Source: Candidatus Dojkabacteria bacterium
GTDB lineage: Bacteria > Patescibacteriota > Dojkabacteria > B142 > WJKM01
NCBI GenBank assembly: GCA_014729085.1
Contig: WJKM01000023.1
Coordinates: forward strand, 77,648 to 123,404
DNA: 45,757 nucleotides
Reading direction: 5' to 3'
In this document: positions 24,523 to 28,498 of the stretch, in pieces
How positions within the stretch are numbered: the stretch's first letter is position 1
Layout: each line of letters begins with the position of its first letter
The notes under the pieces: generated by a model
Seen by the model: only the letters and a program-made list of their open reading frames with translations
Databases searched by the model: none
What the model was told of the DNA's origin: nothing
Translations under genes and position numbers: made by a program

Positions 24523-24551
24523 TTGATTCTAGAAGGAATTCCCTATATAAT
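24523..24551 (+). promoter_or_regulatory. Promoter of Thr-attenuated operon
   Basis: TTGATT (24523-24528) - 17 nt - TATAAT (24546-24551); predicted TSS about 24558-24559, at the leader ATG. Confidence 0.75.
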
Positions 24552-24558
24552 AGTGAAA

Positions 24559-24606
24559 ATGAAAATCAAAAGTATAAATACAACAAGAAGCACCACAACC
24601 CCTTAA
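24559..24606 (+). CDS. Thr-rich leader peptide 1: MKIKSINTTRSTTTP*
   Basis: ATG AAA ATC AAA AGT ATA AAT ACA ACA AGA AGC ACC ACA ACC CCT TAA; 5 of 15 codons Thr; followed by attenuator structures. Confidence 0.8.
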   Translation: MKIKSINTTRSTTTP

Positions 24607-24645
24607 GAAATAGAAGGGAGGCTTTTGTATTTATTTCGAATTAGT

Positions 24646-24670
24646 AAACCTCCTAAAAGAGGTTTTTTTT
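24646..24670 (+). terminator. Attenuator terminator 1
   Basis: AAACCTC-ctaaaa-GAGGTTT plus T8 tract; alternative pairing of GGGAGG (24616-24621) with CCTCCT (24649-24654). Confidence 0.88.
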
Positions 24671-24685
24671 ATTTAAAAAGACAAA

Positions 24686-24745
24686 ATGACAATAATACAT
24701 TCCAAAAAAACAACTACTACCTTGATAACCTTAAGAAAGGGGTAG
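24686..24745 (+). CDS. Thr-rich leader peptide 2: MTIIHSKKTTTTLITLRKG*
   Basis: ATG ACA ATA ATA CAT TCC AAA AAA ACA ACT ACT ACC TTG ATA ACC TTA AGA AAG GGG TAG; four consecutive Thr codons, 6 of 19 Thr. Confidence 0.8.
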   Translation: MTIIHSKKTTTTLITLRKG

Positions 24746-24769
24746 TTTTTCCTATATTTTTTATTTTAG

Positions 24770-24796
24770 AACTCCCCTGAAAAGGGGAGTTTTTTT
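24770..24796 (+). terminator. Attenuator terminator 2
   Basis: AACTCCCCT-GAAA-AGGGGAGTT, 9-bp stem with GAAA tetraloop and T tract; 5' arm alternatively pairs AGGGGtAGTT (24738-24747). Confidence 0.92.
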
Positions 24797-24807
24797 ATAT
24801 ACATATT

Positions 24808-26631
24808 ATGAACGAACAAATACAACAAGCAAACATTCAACTTGAACAACCTCCTATCGATTTATTTGCTAGTGTAGAACATGCTCATAAGGACATGGGA
24901 GCGGAACAATATATCTCTTTTGATGCATTCCAACAATGGCTTAACTCAAGAGGATTCGAAGTAAAAGCAAACCCAAAAACTGCTGGAGGATTTATCTATG
25001 ATACTAATACTCAATACGTGGGATACATAAGGCCTCCTTTTTGGCGAACTAATAAAGGTGATCCAAATCTCATGCCTTCTGATATACAAGAAATTGAACC
25101 AATCAGGGAACGTTCCAATAATTATCAAAAAGTTAAATCTGGCTTTGAGTTAGAAATCTTTGGAATTAAACAAGAAAAAAAGGATGGAGAAATCATGGCA
25201 AGTCTCTTTGAGAACGGTCTAGATCTAGAAGGGAGAATAAATAATAATAACGCAGATAATGAAATACCAATTATTGATTTTGACTCAAAGTTTAGAGCAT
25301 TGCCCTCAAATTTAAGGGAAATACGTTTCGGAAGGGAAATGGCTAAATATACAATCGAAATCAACGGGCATCCTACCTCAAATCCTATTAAAGGAGGTTT
25401 ATCTTTTCTACGTAATCAACAGGTATTAGCCGAAATTTTTGATGATCATGGTTGGTTCCTTTGTCCTATTTCTGCATTTTCGCACAGACCCTTTCGGGCT
25501 TCGGATATTTCTAATGATAGTTACTTGCAAAGAATTGTTCTCAATAATGAAATGTGGCCTAGAGAGAAATCTTTACATTATGTTGGTAATTCTGCACAAT
25601 TTCATTGTGAAATTTTAAATGAAAAAGCTGGATTAACTGCTCTCAATCTTTATCAATTGGTTTATCCTCTAACTGTGGGTATTTCACTTGCAAGTCCCTT
25701 TATGCACGGAAAAACAAATCCAAATTTAAAAACAATCTTAGTAGATCAAGCACAGCTGGGGAAAGATAAAGACCCAAATATTATAAAGACATTGGATAAT
25801 GAAGGATTTCTCTCAGTCAGAGAAGGTACGAGATTTCTAGCTGGAATAGATTCAGGTATTTTACATGAACCTTTTCCAGAAAACCCAGATGACTATATAG
25901 AACTCGTAGAACAAAAATTAAATTCCGGAGATATACCTCATCCTGATCGAGGAGGTGGGCAACAAGCGGACAGATTCAAATTCAGCTTGCATACTTTAGA
26001 AGTATCTAATATGGATACATTCGCTGGTAATACTTTAAAATTTCTTTCTGCGCAAGAATTTTCCAAGGCACTTATGTGGAAACTCCAAGTGTATGGTTCA
26101 AACCAACGAGGTATTGCAAGTCTCTGCGACAGATTCCCTTCTCTTTTTAAATACCCTGTTGATAAAACGCTTCTAGACCATGTTAGGCGGAACGCACTAG
26201 AGGTAACTAAAGATGGTCTAGATGCTAAATTAGTAGGAGTTGACGGAAATCTATACGAAGCGCAAGAGCTCTTCTACGAATTGTTAGATTTTGTTAACGA
26301 ACCCATACCAGAACTTCAATATTACGGTTTACCATTCAACGTAATCAGAGAACTAATAAAAAGTAGTGAAATTCCATCCCAAGACGATTTTATTCGATAT
26401 CTGGATGAAGAAGGACTTCCTTCAGTTTATGGATATTACGATAGCGGAATCGGTACAGCAGCACATTGGCTAAAAGCGCGAGCAAATACTTTAGTTAAAG
26501 AATTCAATATGCCAGAAGGAGACGCTGTCGAAAATTGCCTCATTGACCTTGGAAAAAGTTATCATAGACATTTGAAACAAATATACGGAAAAGATATTGA
26601 AAGATTATTCTCATCATATAAAGAACCATGA
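24808..26631 (+). CDS. GCS2-like (glutamate-cysteine ligase/YbdK superfamily) carboxylate-amine ligase
   Basis: GFELEIFGI, FGREMAKYTIEINGHPTSNP, NSAQFHCEIL, LTVGISLASPFMHGKT, HTLEVSNMDTF in the expected order. Confidence 0.65.
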   Translation: MNEQIQQANIQLEQPPIDLFASVEHAHKDMGAEQYISFDAFQQWLNSRGFEVKANPKTAGGFIYDTNTQYVGYIRPPFWRTNKGDPNLMPSDIQEIEPIRERSNNYQKVKSGFELEIFGIKQEKKDGEIMASLFENGLDLEGRINNNNADNEIPIIDFDSKFRALPSNLREIRFGREMAKYTIEINGHPTSNPIKGGLSFLRNQQVLAEIFDDHGWFLCPISAFSHRPFRASDISNDSYLQRIVLNNEMWPREKSLHYVGNSAQFHCEILNEKAGLTALNLYQLVYPLTVGISLASPFMHGKTNPNLKTILVDQAQLGKDKDPNIIKTLDNEGFLSVREGTRFLAGIDSGILHEPFPENPDDYIELVEQKLNSGDIPHPDRGGGQQADRFKFSLHTLEVSNMDTFAGNTLKFLSAQEFSKALMWKLQVYGSNQRGIASLCDRFPSLFKYPVDKTLLDHVRRNALEVTKDGLDAKLVGVDGNLYEAQELFYELLDFVNEPIPELQYYGLPFNVIRELIKSSEIPSQDDFIRYLDEEGLPSVYGYYDSGIGTAAHWLKARANTLVKEFNMPEGDAVENCLIDLGKSYHRHLKQIYGKDIERLFSSYKEP

Positions 26632-26694
26632 AGATCAAATTATAATGCATTAGAACTGATATAATGTAACGATCATAAATATTTATATATTATT

Positions 26695-27669
26695 ATGAGC
26701 TTATCCAAAGATCTTCAGTCAAAATTTAAAAAATATAAAAAACAATTTGTTTTAATTGCACCCTATAAAAACCCAAGTAAGCTTATTGTATTTCCACACT
26801 CCGGTTATACCTTTTTCTTCAACCAAAAACATAGAGACATATTTAATGATTGTGTTGCTCAGGATTTCAAAATCGGTTCTGAAGAGATTGACTATAACTT
26901 CTTTAAATTTCTACAGGAGACAGACATAGGCTTTGAACATTCTGTCCTTCCTTTTTTATTATCCGGTAAACTAGAACTTGAAAAAGAGATACTCCCCAAA
27001 GATACCTGGGCATTAATAAATAAAGGCCACAGAATTACAGCAGGAGATGTAAACCGCGGATGTGCAGAACCACAAAAAATTGTTCCTCTAAAAACCTTTA
27101 CCGGTATGCAAATCTTTAAAGATAAAAGTAAACATCATGATTATAGTAACTGGGTAATTCAAAATCATGTTCAACCTTTTCAATCTTCATATCTTGATAT
27201 TTTAAAAGAGAATCCTTCGATAGAAGTTGCAATACATATGCATACTCTGGATCCAACCTCTGGTTTTGCAAATATAAAGACTTCTATGCAAGACAGAATC
27301 CGTCCAATGGCTCAGTTATTTCAATATGCGTCTGTTTATCCAGAAATCCATTCTACTTTTTTTAAAAACAGAAAAAATGAAAAACCTTTTGAGATCGAAT
27401 TTTTACCTTCTCAAATATTGGAGGAAGCAAAAAGAATACTTAAAAAACATCTGTCAAAGTATTATATAGGCTCAAAACCTAAAATTTTAGTAGATTCACC
27501 CTATTGCATGAAAGGATATAAAGGTGTAGGATTTGCCTCATTAACCGCAATGCACAATCCAAAAATAAAGCAAATTTTAGTCGAAGCAAACAAAGCGGCA
27601 CTAAATACTGACAGGAGAGCTGGTAGAGATTATCTAGAAGCAACTTTAAAAATAAGTAGCCTTCTATAA
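26695..27669 (+). CDS. N-formylglutamate amidohydrolase-like (FGase superfamily) protein
   Basis: LIVFPHSGYTFFF, HRITAGDVNRG, IEVAIHMHTLDP, ILVEANKAALNTDRRAG; divergent. Confidence 0.5.
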   Translation: MSLSKDLQSKFKKYKKQFVLIAPYKNPSKLIVFPHSGYTFFFNQKHRDIFNDCVAQDFKIGSEEIDYNFFKFLQETDIGFEHSVLPFLLSGKLELEKEILPKDTWALINKGHRITAGDVNRGCAEPQKIVPLKTFTGMQIFKDKSKHHDYSNWVIQNHVQPFQSSYLDILKENPSIEVAIHMHTLDPTSGFANIKTSMQDRIRPMAQLFQYASVYPEIHSTFFKNRKNEKPFEIEFLPSQILEEAKRILKKHLSKYYIGSKPKILVDSPYCMKGYKGVGFASLTAMHNPKIKQILVEANKAALNTDRRAGRDYLEATLKISSLL

Positions 27670-27718
27670 TCTTTTATTCAAAATTGAAGTACCAACACTA
27701 AATTTATCTAATACTGGG

Positions 27719-28498
27719 ATGGATTCCTCTTCAAGTCTAAAACAAATCGATCCAAAGATTATCAGTGATTTAATTATTGGTTATTCAGGTTATCTCTGTA
27801 AACAAGGACGAAATAAAGTCGATTCAATGGGCTTTCTGACTCAGCGTACATATTTAGATTATTGTATATCAATATATTTTAATCCTGTTCTGGACAAATA
27901 TCATAAACCCCAAGATAGTGTAGGTATTTTTGTCCAAGACAATAGATTAGCTTTTGCAATAGCTGACGGGGTATCTATAATAAGAGGAACCACTCAAAAT
28001 GATTCCGGATATGTTGCACATAAATTAGTTTCCAATCTTCCCCAATTTTATTTCGACAAACTCAACTCACAACTTAAAAAAATTTCTAGAGAATTGAAGA
28101 ATAAGAATACTTCGGGAGCTTCTACCCTTTCCCTGGGAATAATACGCCACGAAAAAGACACAGATCAAATTGACTTTTCTTTTATCGGTAATACTCTGGA
28201 TATTGGAGTTAGTATGATCTCTCTTGGAAACAAATTAGAAACAATTCAAAATCAAAGTAGTGGATATTTTCTTTCAAATTATCGAATATCTACTAAAAGT
28301 TATGAGTTAAAAAAATGCTATGATATTTTCCTATCATCAGACGGGTTGAAGCTACCAATGAATGCTGTTAAAAAACTGATTGATATGAACATAAAACAGA
28401 GATCCTCAGACTTTATAAAAGTTATAAAGCAATTTCAATCAAAAATCCCAGATGATCAAAGCATAATAATTATTTCAAAAACAAACTCCGAACATTAA
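27719..28498 (+). CDS. PP2C/PPM-like phosphatase
   Basis: LAFAIADGVS, GASTLSLGII, FSFIGNTLDIG, FLSSDGLKLP, DDQSIIIIS. Confidence 0.65.
   Translation: MDSSSSLKQIDPKIISDLIIGYSGYLCKQGRNKVDSMGFLTQRTYLDYCISIYFNPVLDKYHKPQDSVGIFVQDNRLAFAIADGVSIIRGTTQNDSGYVAHKLVSNLPQFYFDKLNSQLKKISRELKNKNTSGASTLSLGIIRHEKDTDQIDFSFIGNTLDIGVSMISLGNKLETIQNQSSGYFLSNYRISTKSYELKKCYDIFLSSDGLKLPMNAVKKLIDMNIKQRSSDFIKVIKQFQSKIPDDQSIIIISKTNSEH

Follow-up and report, generated by a model that had tools for sequence, protein, structure and literature searches.

A threonine-codon attenuator region upstream of a GCS2-like ligase gene in a Dojkabacteria genome, and its counterparts at other amidoligase-like genes

The window analyzed here is a stretch of 45,757 nucleotides from the genome of a Candidatus Dojkabacteria bacterium. 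It contains three co-directional genes on the + strand, separated by 63 nt (genes 1 and 2) and 49 nt (genes 2 and 3), which lie downstream of two short open reading frames rich in threonine codons. The region preceding gene 1 (24523-24793) is ordered as promoter, Thr leader, terminator, second Thr leader and second terminator, and the features of the locus are as follows.

24523..24551, + strand: sigma-70-type promoter, TTGATT-17-TATAAT, matching 10 of 12 consensus positions
24559..24606, + strand: Thr leader peptide 1, MKIKSINTTRSTTTP and stop, with Thr at 5 of 15 residues
24616..24622, + strand: segment 2 of attenuator 1, GGGAGGC, with segment 1 (CCCCT of the leader) or segment 3 (antiterminator) as alternative partners
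24646..24665, + strand: terminator stem-loop of attenuator 1 (segments 3:4) with T tail, an intrinsic terminator
24686..24745, + strand: Thr leader peptide 2, MTIIHSKKTTTTLITLRKG and stop, with Thr at 6 of 19 residues
24739..24750, + strand: segment 2 of attenuator 2, GGGGTAGTTTTT, overlapping the leader 2 stop codon
24768..24793, + strand: terminator stem-loop of attenuator 2 (segments 3:4; 11 pairs) with T tail, an intrinsic terminator
24808..26631, + strand: gene 1, 607 aa, divergent protein resembling GCS2-family carboxylate-amine ligases (GCS2 match at residues 171-304)
26695..27669, + strand: gene 2, 324 aa, possible FGase-like amidohydrolase (motifs only, without Pfam or NCBIfam match)
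27719..28498, + strand: gene 3, 259 aa, possible PP2C-like protein (motifs only, without Pfam or NCBIfam match)

Their spacing and common strand suggest that genes 1-3 form one operon. Promoter-like matches as a class were not enriched in the upstream region (20 versus 18 in shuffles). The distance from the end of the -10 hexamer to the leader 1 ATG is 7 nt, which places the predicted transcription start at or adjoining this codon, and leader 1 is therefore probably translated from a leaderless mRNA.

Both units combine the sequence features of a ribosome-mediated attenuator, i.e., an open reading frame with cognate codons, an intrinsic terminator and mutually exclusive 1:2, 2:3 and 3:4 pairings, the last of which are strong for leader 2 and weaker for leader 1. 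For attenuator 1, the 2:3 pairing had a calculated energy of -8.1 kcal/mol, with 14 of 300 shuffled sequences as low, and the 1:2 pairing one of -5.2 kcal/mol. In attenuator 2, the codon run ACA ACT ACT ACC (24710-24721) serves as segment 1 and pairs with GGGGTAGTT, which overlaps the leader 2 stop codon and has as its alternative partner AACTCCCC, the 5' arm of the terminator; the 2:3 and 1:2 energies were -9.6 kcal/mol (1 of 300 shuffles as low) and -8.7 kcal/mol, respectively. In equilibrium folding, the terminators stayed formed in all states, that with a stalled ribosome included, and antitermination must therefore be kinetic, as it is in known attenuators. Threonine-codon attenuation ahead of three co-directional genes had been proposed in a first-pass annotation of this DNA, and the open reading frames, leaders, terminators and alternative pairings bear this out, so that regulation of the locus by threonine codons is well supported by the sequence. 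The arrangement resembles attenuators of the E. coli thrL, trpL and hisL type in its short cognate-codon reading frame, exclusive hairpins and intrinsic terminator. However, it differs from them in that the first leader is probably leaderless, the attenuator is tandemly duplicated, and the targets are not threonine biosynthesis genes.

The description of gene 1 as GCS2-like, likewise made in the first-pass annotation, is supported by two kinds of profile match. Against Pfam PF04107, it gave an E-value of 7.8e-4 and 19.3 bits versus a cut-off of 21 (20.7 bits in a second search, or 21.2 with the frame neighbours included), and the alignment covers the central part of the profile (positions 35-168 of 291). 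Against a profile of GCS2 proteins from this and related genomes, a single-sequence search returned an E-value of 2.6e-6. By eye, a G-x-E-x-E-like motif (GFELE) and QFH are present, and the counterpart of the GCS2 substrate-binding E-x-R reads LEVSNMD. Gene 1 matches the GCS2/YbdK (TIGR02050) carboxylate-amine ligases over the central part of the domain but differs from them in its length, with an N-terminal extension, in the replacement of the putative substrate arginine, and in scoring far under the subfamily cut-off (18.7 versus 176.4 bits). No credible homologue of gene 1 was found in 149 relatives, 389 genomes of the phylum, plasmids or viral contigs.

The labels given earlier to genes 2 and 3 fared less well. 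Gene 2 carries the motifs PHSG, DVNR, HMH (in place of D-x-H) and LVEAN and matched a home-made FGase profile with an E-value of 0.0057, but it had no match to FGase PF05013 in Pfam at an E-value of 1 and none in NCBIfam; the PF05013 profile found no candidate in the whole genome, and searches of contigs from other genomes and of plasmids gave no homologue of gene 2. These motifs are suggestive of an FGase-like protein, and gene 2 may encode an amidohydrolase. Similarly, the PP2C-like reading of gene 3 stands at the level of motifs (QDS at position 65, ADG at 82, GAST at 133, GNT at 157, SDG at 207 and DDQS at 245), but no PP2C/PPM match to this protein was obtained in Pfam or NCBIfam, the only PF13672 match of the genome lying elsewhere. 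Single-sequence AlphaFold models of the products of genes 2 and 3 had pLDDT values of 35 and 34 and gave no fold support for either label. PDB sequence searches with the three proteins and with the ATP-grasp-like profile described below yielded nothing credible, and PADLOC and PHROGs returned no defence or phage match of weight.

The first-pass annotation had named a lack of conservation of the neighbouring genes as evidence against a functional unit, and this is what was found: no other genome searched has the exact three-gene unit. What keeps the idea alive is therefore solely that the design recurs; the genes themselves do not. In the related genomes G005 and G007, a GCS2 gene has a Tyr leader (NYYYSH) in front of it. 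An Ile/Leu-rich leader is followed by GCS2-like and M20 genes in G002 and an Ile leader by M20 and GCS2-like genes in G047, and in G016 a single gene separates the GCS2-like and M20 genes from an upstream leader in which Ile, Leu and Val are abundant. In G007, an M20 gene lies two genes upstream of the GCS2-like gene, with an Ile run and no good terminator seen; L112 of this genome (10267-6221, - strand) holds an M20 hydrolase gene, a MIP-family channel gene and a GCS2-like gene in a row. The M20 proteins of the relatives resemble ArgE/DapE deacylases. The proposed pairing of a ligase with a hydrolase is thus supported indirectly, by GCS2-like genes beside M20 amidohydrolase genes in G002, G016 and G047, but the label of gene 2 itself is motif-level. 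Since a ligase beside an amidohydrolase recurs in relatives, the FGase-like reading of gene 2 is attractive, though its own evidence is weak. Another arrangement occurs in L113 (1-4390), where a tandem row of four M20 hydrolase genes comes first, then an Ile/Leu leader with a pair of ATP-grasp-like genes behind it, and finally a Mur-ligase-like gene. Both ligase types are rare: 5 of 91 genomes of the class encode GCS2-like proteins of the Leu/Ile/Val type described below, and 2 of 389 across the phylum encode members of the ATP-grasp-like family.

Within the genome itself, sampling of about 45% of the sequence together with whole-genome profile searches revealed ten amidoligase-like genes, five GCS2-like and five ATP-grasp-like. 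The profile searches returned two genes for the GCS2 family, three of the Leu/Ile/Val type and four ATP-grasp-like genes, and the tenth, also ATP-grasp-like, came from the sampled stretches. A tRNA-charging sensor lies upstream of every one of the ten: eight genes have a clear leader peptide, one has a probable leader and one a T-box-like RNA, with two leaders each for Thr, Tyr and Met and one each for the rest of the leader-controlled genes.

GCS2-like, Thr leaders: gene 1, in the window
GCS2-like, Tyr leader: in L026
GCS2-like, Leu, Ile and Val leaders: three genes, in L089
ATP-grasp-like, Phe leader
ATP-grasp-like, Met leader, with the MetRS gene downstream
ATP-grasp-like, probable His leader, judged by two His codons in the control position
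ATP-grasp-like, T-box-like RNA: L101 1109-1263
ATP-grasp-like, Trp leader: L026 16805-14299, - strand, with a trpR-family gene and an Asp/Glu racemase gene

Three paralogues, 52-57% identical, lie behind the Leu, Ile and Val leaders; the first of these leaders had been predicted from the other two before its site was looked at. Gene 1 gave no profile alignment to these three proteins, and the GCS2-like genes are therefore not one family. The other five genes are called ATP-grasp-like because we interpret their conserved K, DG, RGGID and D-x-N-x-R positions in this way; Pfam gave no match for them. The T-box-like RNA contains the motif AGAGGTGGTACCACGG and scored 39 bits (E-value 2.6e-6) in Rfam, below the gathering score of 93; inspection of it yielded no specifier codon assignment. 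The Trp leader, MYNKFFKQINNKWWKTRLC (WW), lies behind a gene assigned to the Trp repressor family (PF01371, E-value 2.9e-21) and is itself followed by the racemase gene and then the ATP-grasp-like gene; a palindrome in the promoter of the trpR-family gene matches the E. coli trp operator at 13 of 15 positions. This module resembles TrpR/trpL-controlled tryptophan genes in having a TrpR-family gene with an operator-like palindrome and a WW leader, but the controlled genes encode an Asp/Glu racemase and an ATP-grasp-like ligase instead of trp biosynthesis enzymes. Asp/Glu racemases accompany both the Tyr and the Trp ligases. Genes for HExxH-like proteins (HEIIH and HELEH) lie beside the Phe and Met ligase genes (L026 6612-5896, - strand, and L084 7252-7818) and possibly represent further hydrolase partners.

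The frequency of such leaders was compared with chance in a scan of 309 upstream regions, drawn from the window and from stretches that together make up about 45% of the 1.6 Mb genome. A hit required a terminator hairpin downstream of a short open reading frame that contains an amino-acid run; these rules were set after the first leaders had been seen, and the counts are not blind. A terminator hairpin was present in 18 upstream regions, 10 of which also had an amino-acid-run leader, versus 1.0 on average and at most 4 in 60 shuffles that kept the terminator and shuffled the preceding part. When whole regions were shuffled, no leader with terminator arose in 40 rounds. One of the ten hits, in which the 3' end of rpsO was taken for a leader, is a false positive; the other nine precede ligase-like genes (Thr, Tyr, Phe, Met, Leu, Ile and Val) or gatC and cysK-cysS. 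The arrangement of leader and terminator in the sampled genome is not due to chance. The 2:3 pairing was no better than in shuffles for the Tyr1, Cys2, Met2, Val and Trp leaders, and for Met2 and Val the position of segment 2 is apparently within the leader reading frame, outside the stretch used for the calculation.

Leaders also precede genes of known role. Cys leaders lie before cysK-cysS (cysteine synthase and CysRS), and metG, encoding MetRS, follows the Met ligase module. A leader with Gln and Asn codons, MYKYLKQNNQNGNSSE, and an attenuator are found upstream of gatC-gatA (window 41789-41739, - strand), the transamidosome genes that make Gln-tRNA and Asn-tRNA. An Asn-run leader, MKIKIFVNNNRNNNPLF, with a terminator lies directly upstream of a tRNA-Asn(GTT) gene (window 35127-34922, - strand), which thus appears to be under leader-peptide attenuation; the window contains a second tRNA-Asn gene at 292-220. 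The Cys, Gln/Asn, Asn and Met leaders stand at matching genes, and we therefore take as a rule that the leader names the amino acid that is served.

Genes controlled by cognate attenuators in classical systems serve the synthesis, import or charging of the amino acid that is sensed, and it is by analogy with these that we infer function from regulation at the Thr locus. We propose that the locus is a threonine-supply module, acting by salvage, capture or interconversion and induced when Thr-tRNA is scarce, a reading that we regard, as a whole, as evenly poised. Scarcity of Thr-tRNA would cause ribosomes to stall where the leader peptides have their Thr codons, leaving segment 2 free to pair with segment 3; the terminator would be prevented at both serial attenuators, and genes 1-3 would be transcribed. 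The GCS2-like protein would use ATP to form an amide bond in which threonine, or a conjugate of it, takes part, a partner hydrolase (gene 2, probably an amidohydrolase) would act in the same route to provide more usable threonine, and gene 3 may regulate the route. Because a ligase consumes an amine and ATP, its induction by starvation does not obviously raise free threonine; an amidoligase might nevertheless supply an amino acid by capturing it as a conjugate, by way of a protected intermediate, or by interconverting D or blocked forms. If ligase and hydrolase worked on one bond, a futile cycle would result, and the two should therefore act in series. The first-pass guess that amino acids related to threonine are salvaged gains strength from the recurrence of the design at ligase genes with other leaders in this genome, whereas the reaction itself is still a conjecture. 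More broadly, the ten genes may belong to an undescribed acquisition system with one dedicated amidoligase for each amino acid that is not made, paired with hydrolases or racemases and induced by shortage of its own charged tRNA, a tentative proposal that we lean somewhat against.

Other explanations were weighed against threonine supply. The ligases might instead make small molecules containing amino acids that are exported, for instance as antimetabolites or signals, and cause a host or neighbour to release the scarce amino acid, the sensor selecting the molecule to be made. The amidoligase-like character of the genes would fit this, as would their biosynthetic-looking partners, namely the racemases of the Tyr and Trp modules, a Mur-ligase-like gene with tandem ATP-grasp-like genes in G001 and a methyltransferase-like gene in G047. 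However, neither an exporter nor a secretion signal could be identified in the modules, and the known co-regulated genes (cysK, cysS, metG, gatCA and tRNA-Asn) all serve intracellular supply or charging, and we consider this explanation unlikely. It is rather unlikely, too, that the attenuators are real but the downstream genes unrelated to threonine, so that the leaders would report only general translation trouble. In favour of this, the trio is an orphan and the functions of its genes are putative, but the leaders differ by amino acid and match known downstream genes (cysK-cysS, gatCA, metG, tRNA-Asn and the trpR locus), and the Leu, Ile and Val leaders sit before the three paralogues.

A different form of salvage would have ligase, racemase and amidohydrolase convert D- or N-acylated amino acids into the L form, for which the N-succinyl-amino-acid racemase route provides a model. 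The racemases found with the Tyr and Trp ligases, the M20 deacylase-like proteins with the Ile-type GCS2-like genes and the FGase-like motifs of the Thr module are in line with such a route, which we hold to be distinctly unlikely, given that the Thr module lacks a racemase, that no module was seen with all three activities, and that a racemase alone would suffice for D-amino acids. Finally, the GCS2-fold proteins might tag or untag proteins as PafA/Dop-like ligases or deamidases, with turnover releasing amino acids. PafA, which attaches a protein tag, and Dop, which removes it, share an amidoligase fold related to GCS2/GS. However, Pfam gave no Pup_ligase match for gene 1 or the Leu/Ile/Val proteins, and an enzyme of general protein turnover would have no need of a separate copy for each amino acid, which makes this a very improbable explanation; the PafA/Dop hydrolase/ligase pair is discussed in PMC7947786.

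A literature search found no report of leader-peptide attenuation in this lineage. PMC1262725 reports comparative evidence that leader peptides and T-boxes occur side by side at amino-acid genes in Actinobacteria; compared with the systems described there, the targets in the present genome are mostly amidoligase-like genes of putative function. Here, rich leader-peptide attenuation occurs beside T-box-like and TrpR control in one lineage. Where homology fails, regulation may reveal function, in that for some ten orphan ligases the likely substrate is indicated by the amino acid to which the sensor responds. If this is true, each ligase would have a directly testable substrate, and the set would offer a view of how single amino acids are managed in a reduced, probably auxotrophic bacterium. 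Should the acquisition system exist, classical attenuation would have amidoligases as its target in place of biosynthesis. Altogether, the recurrence of this arrangement in the genome, with other ligases and for no fewer than seven further amino acids, suggests that single amino acids are secured in a way not described so far.
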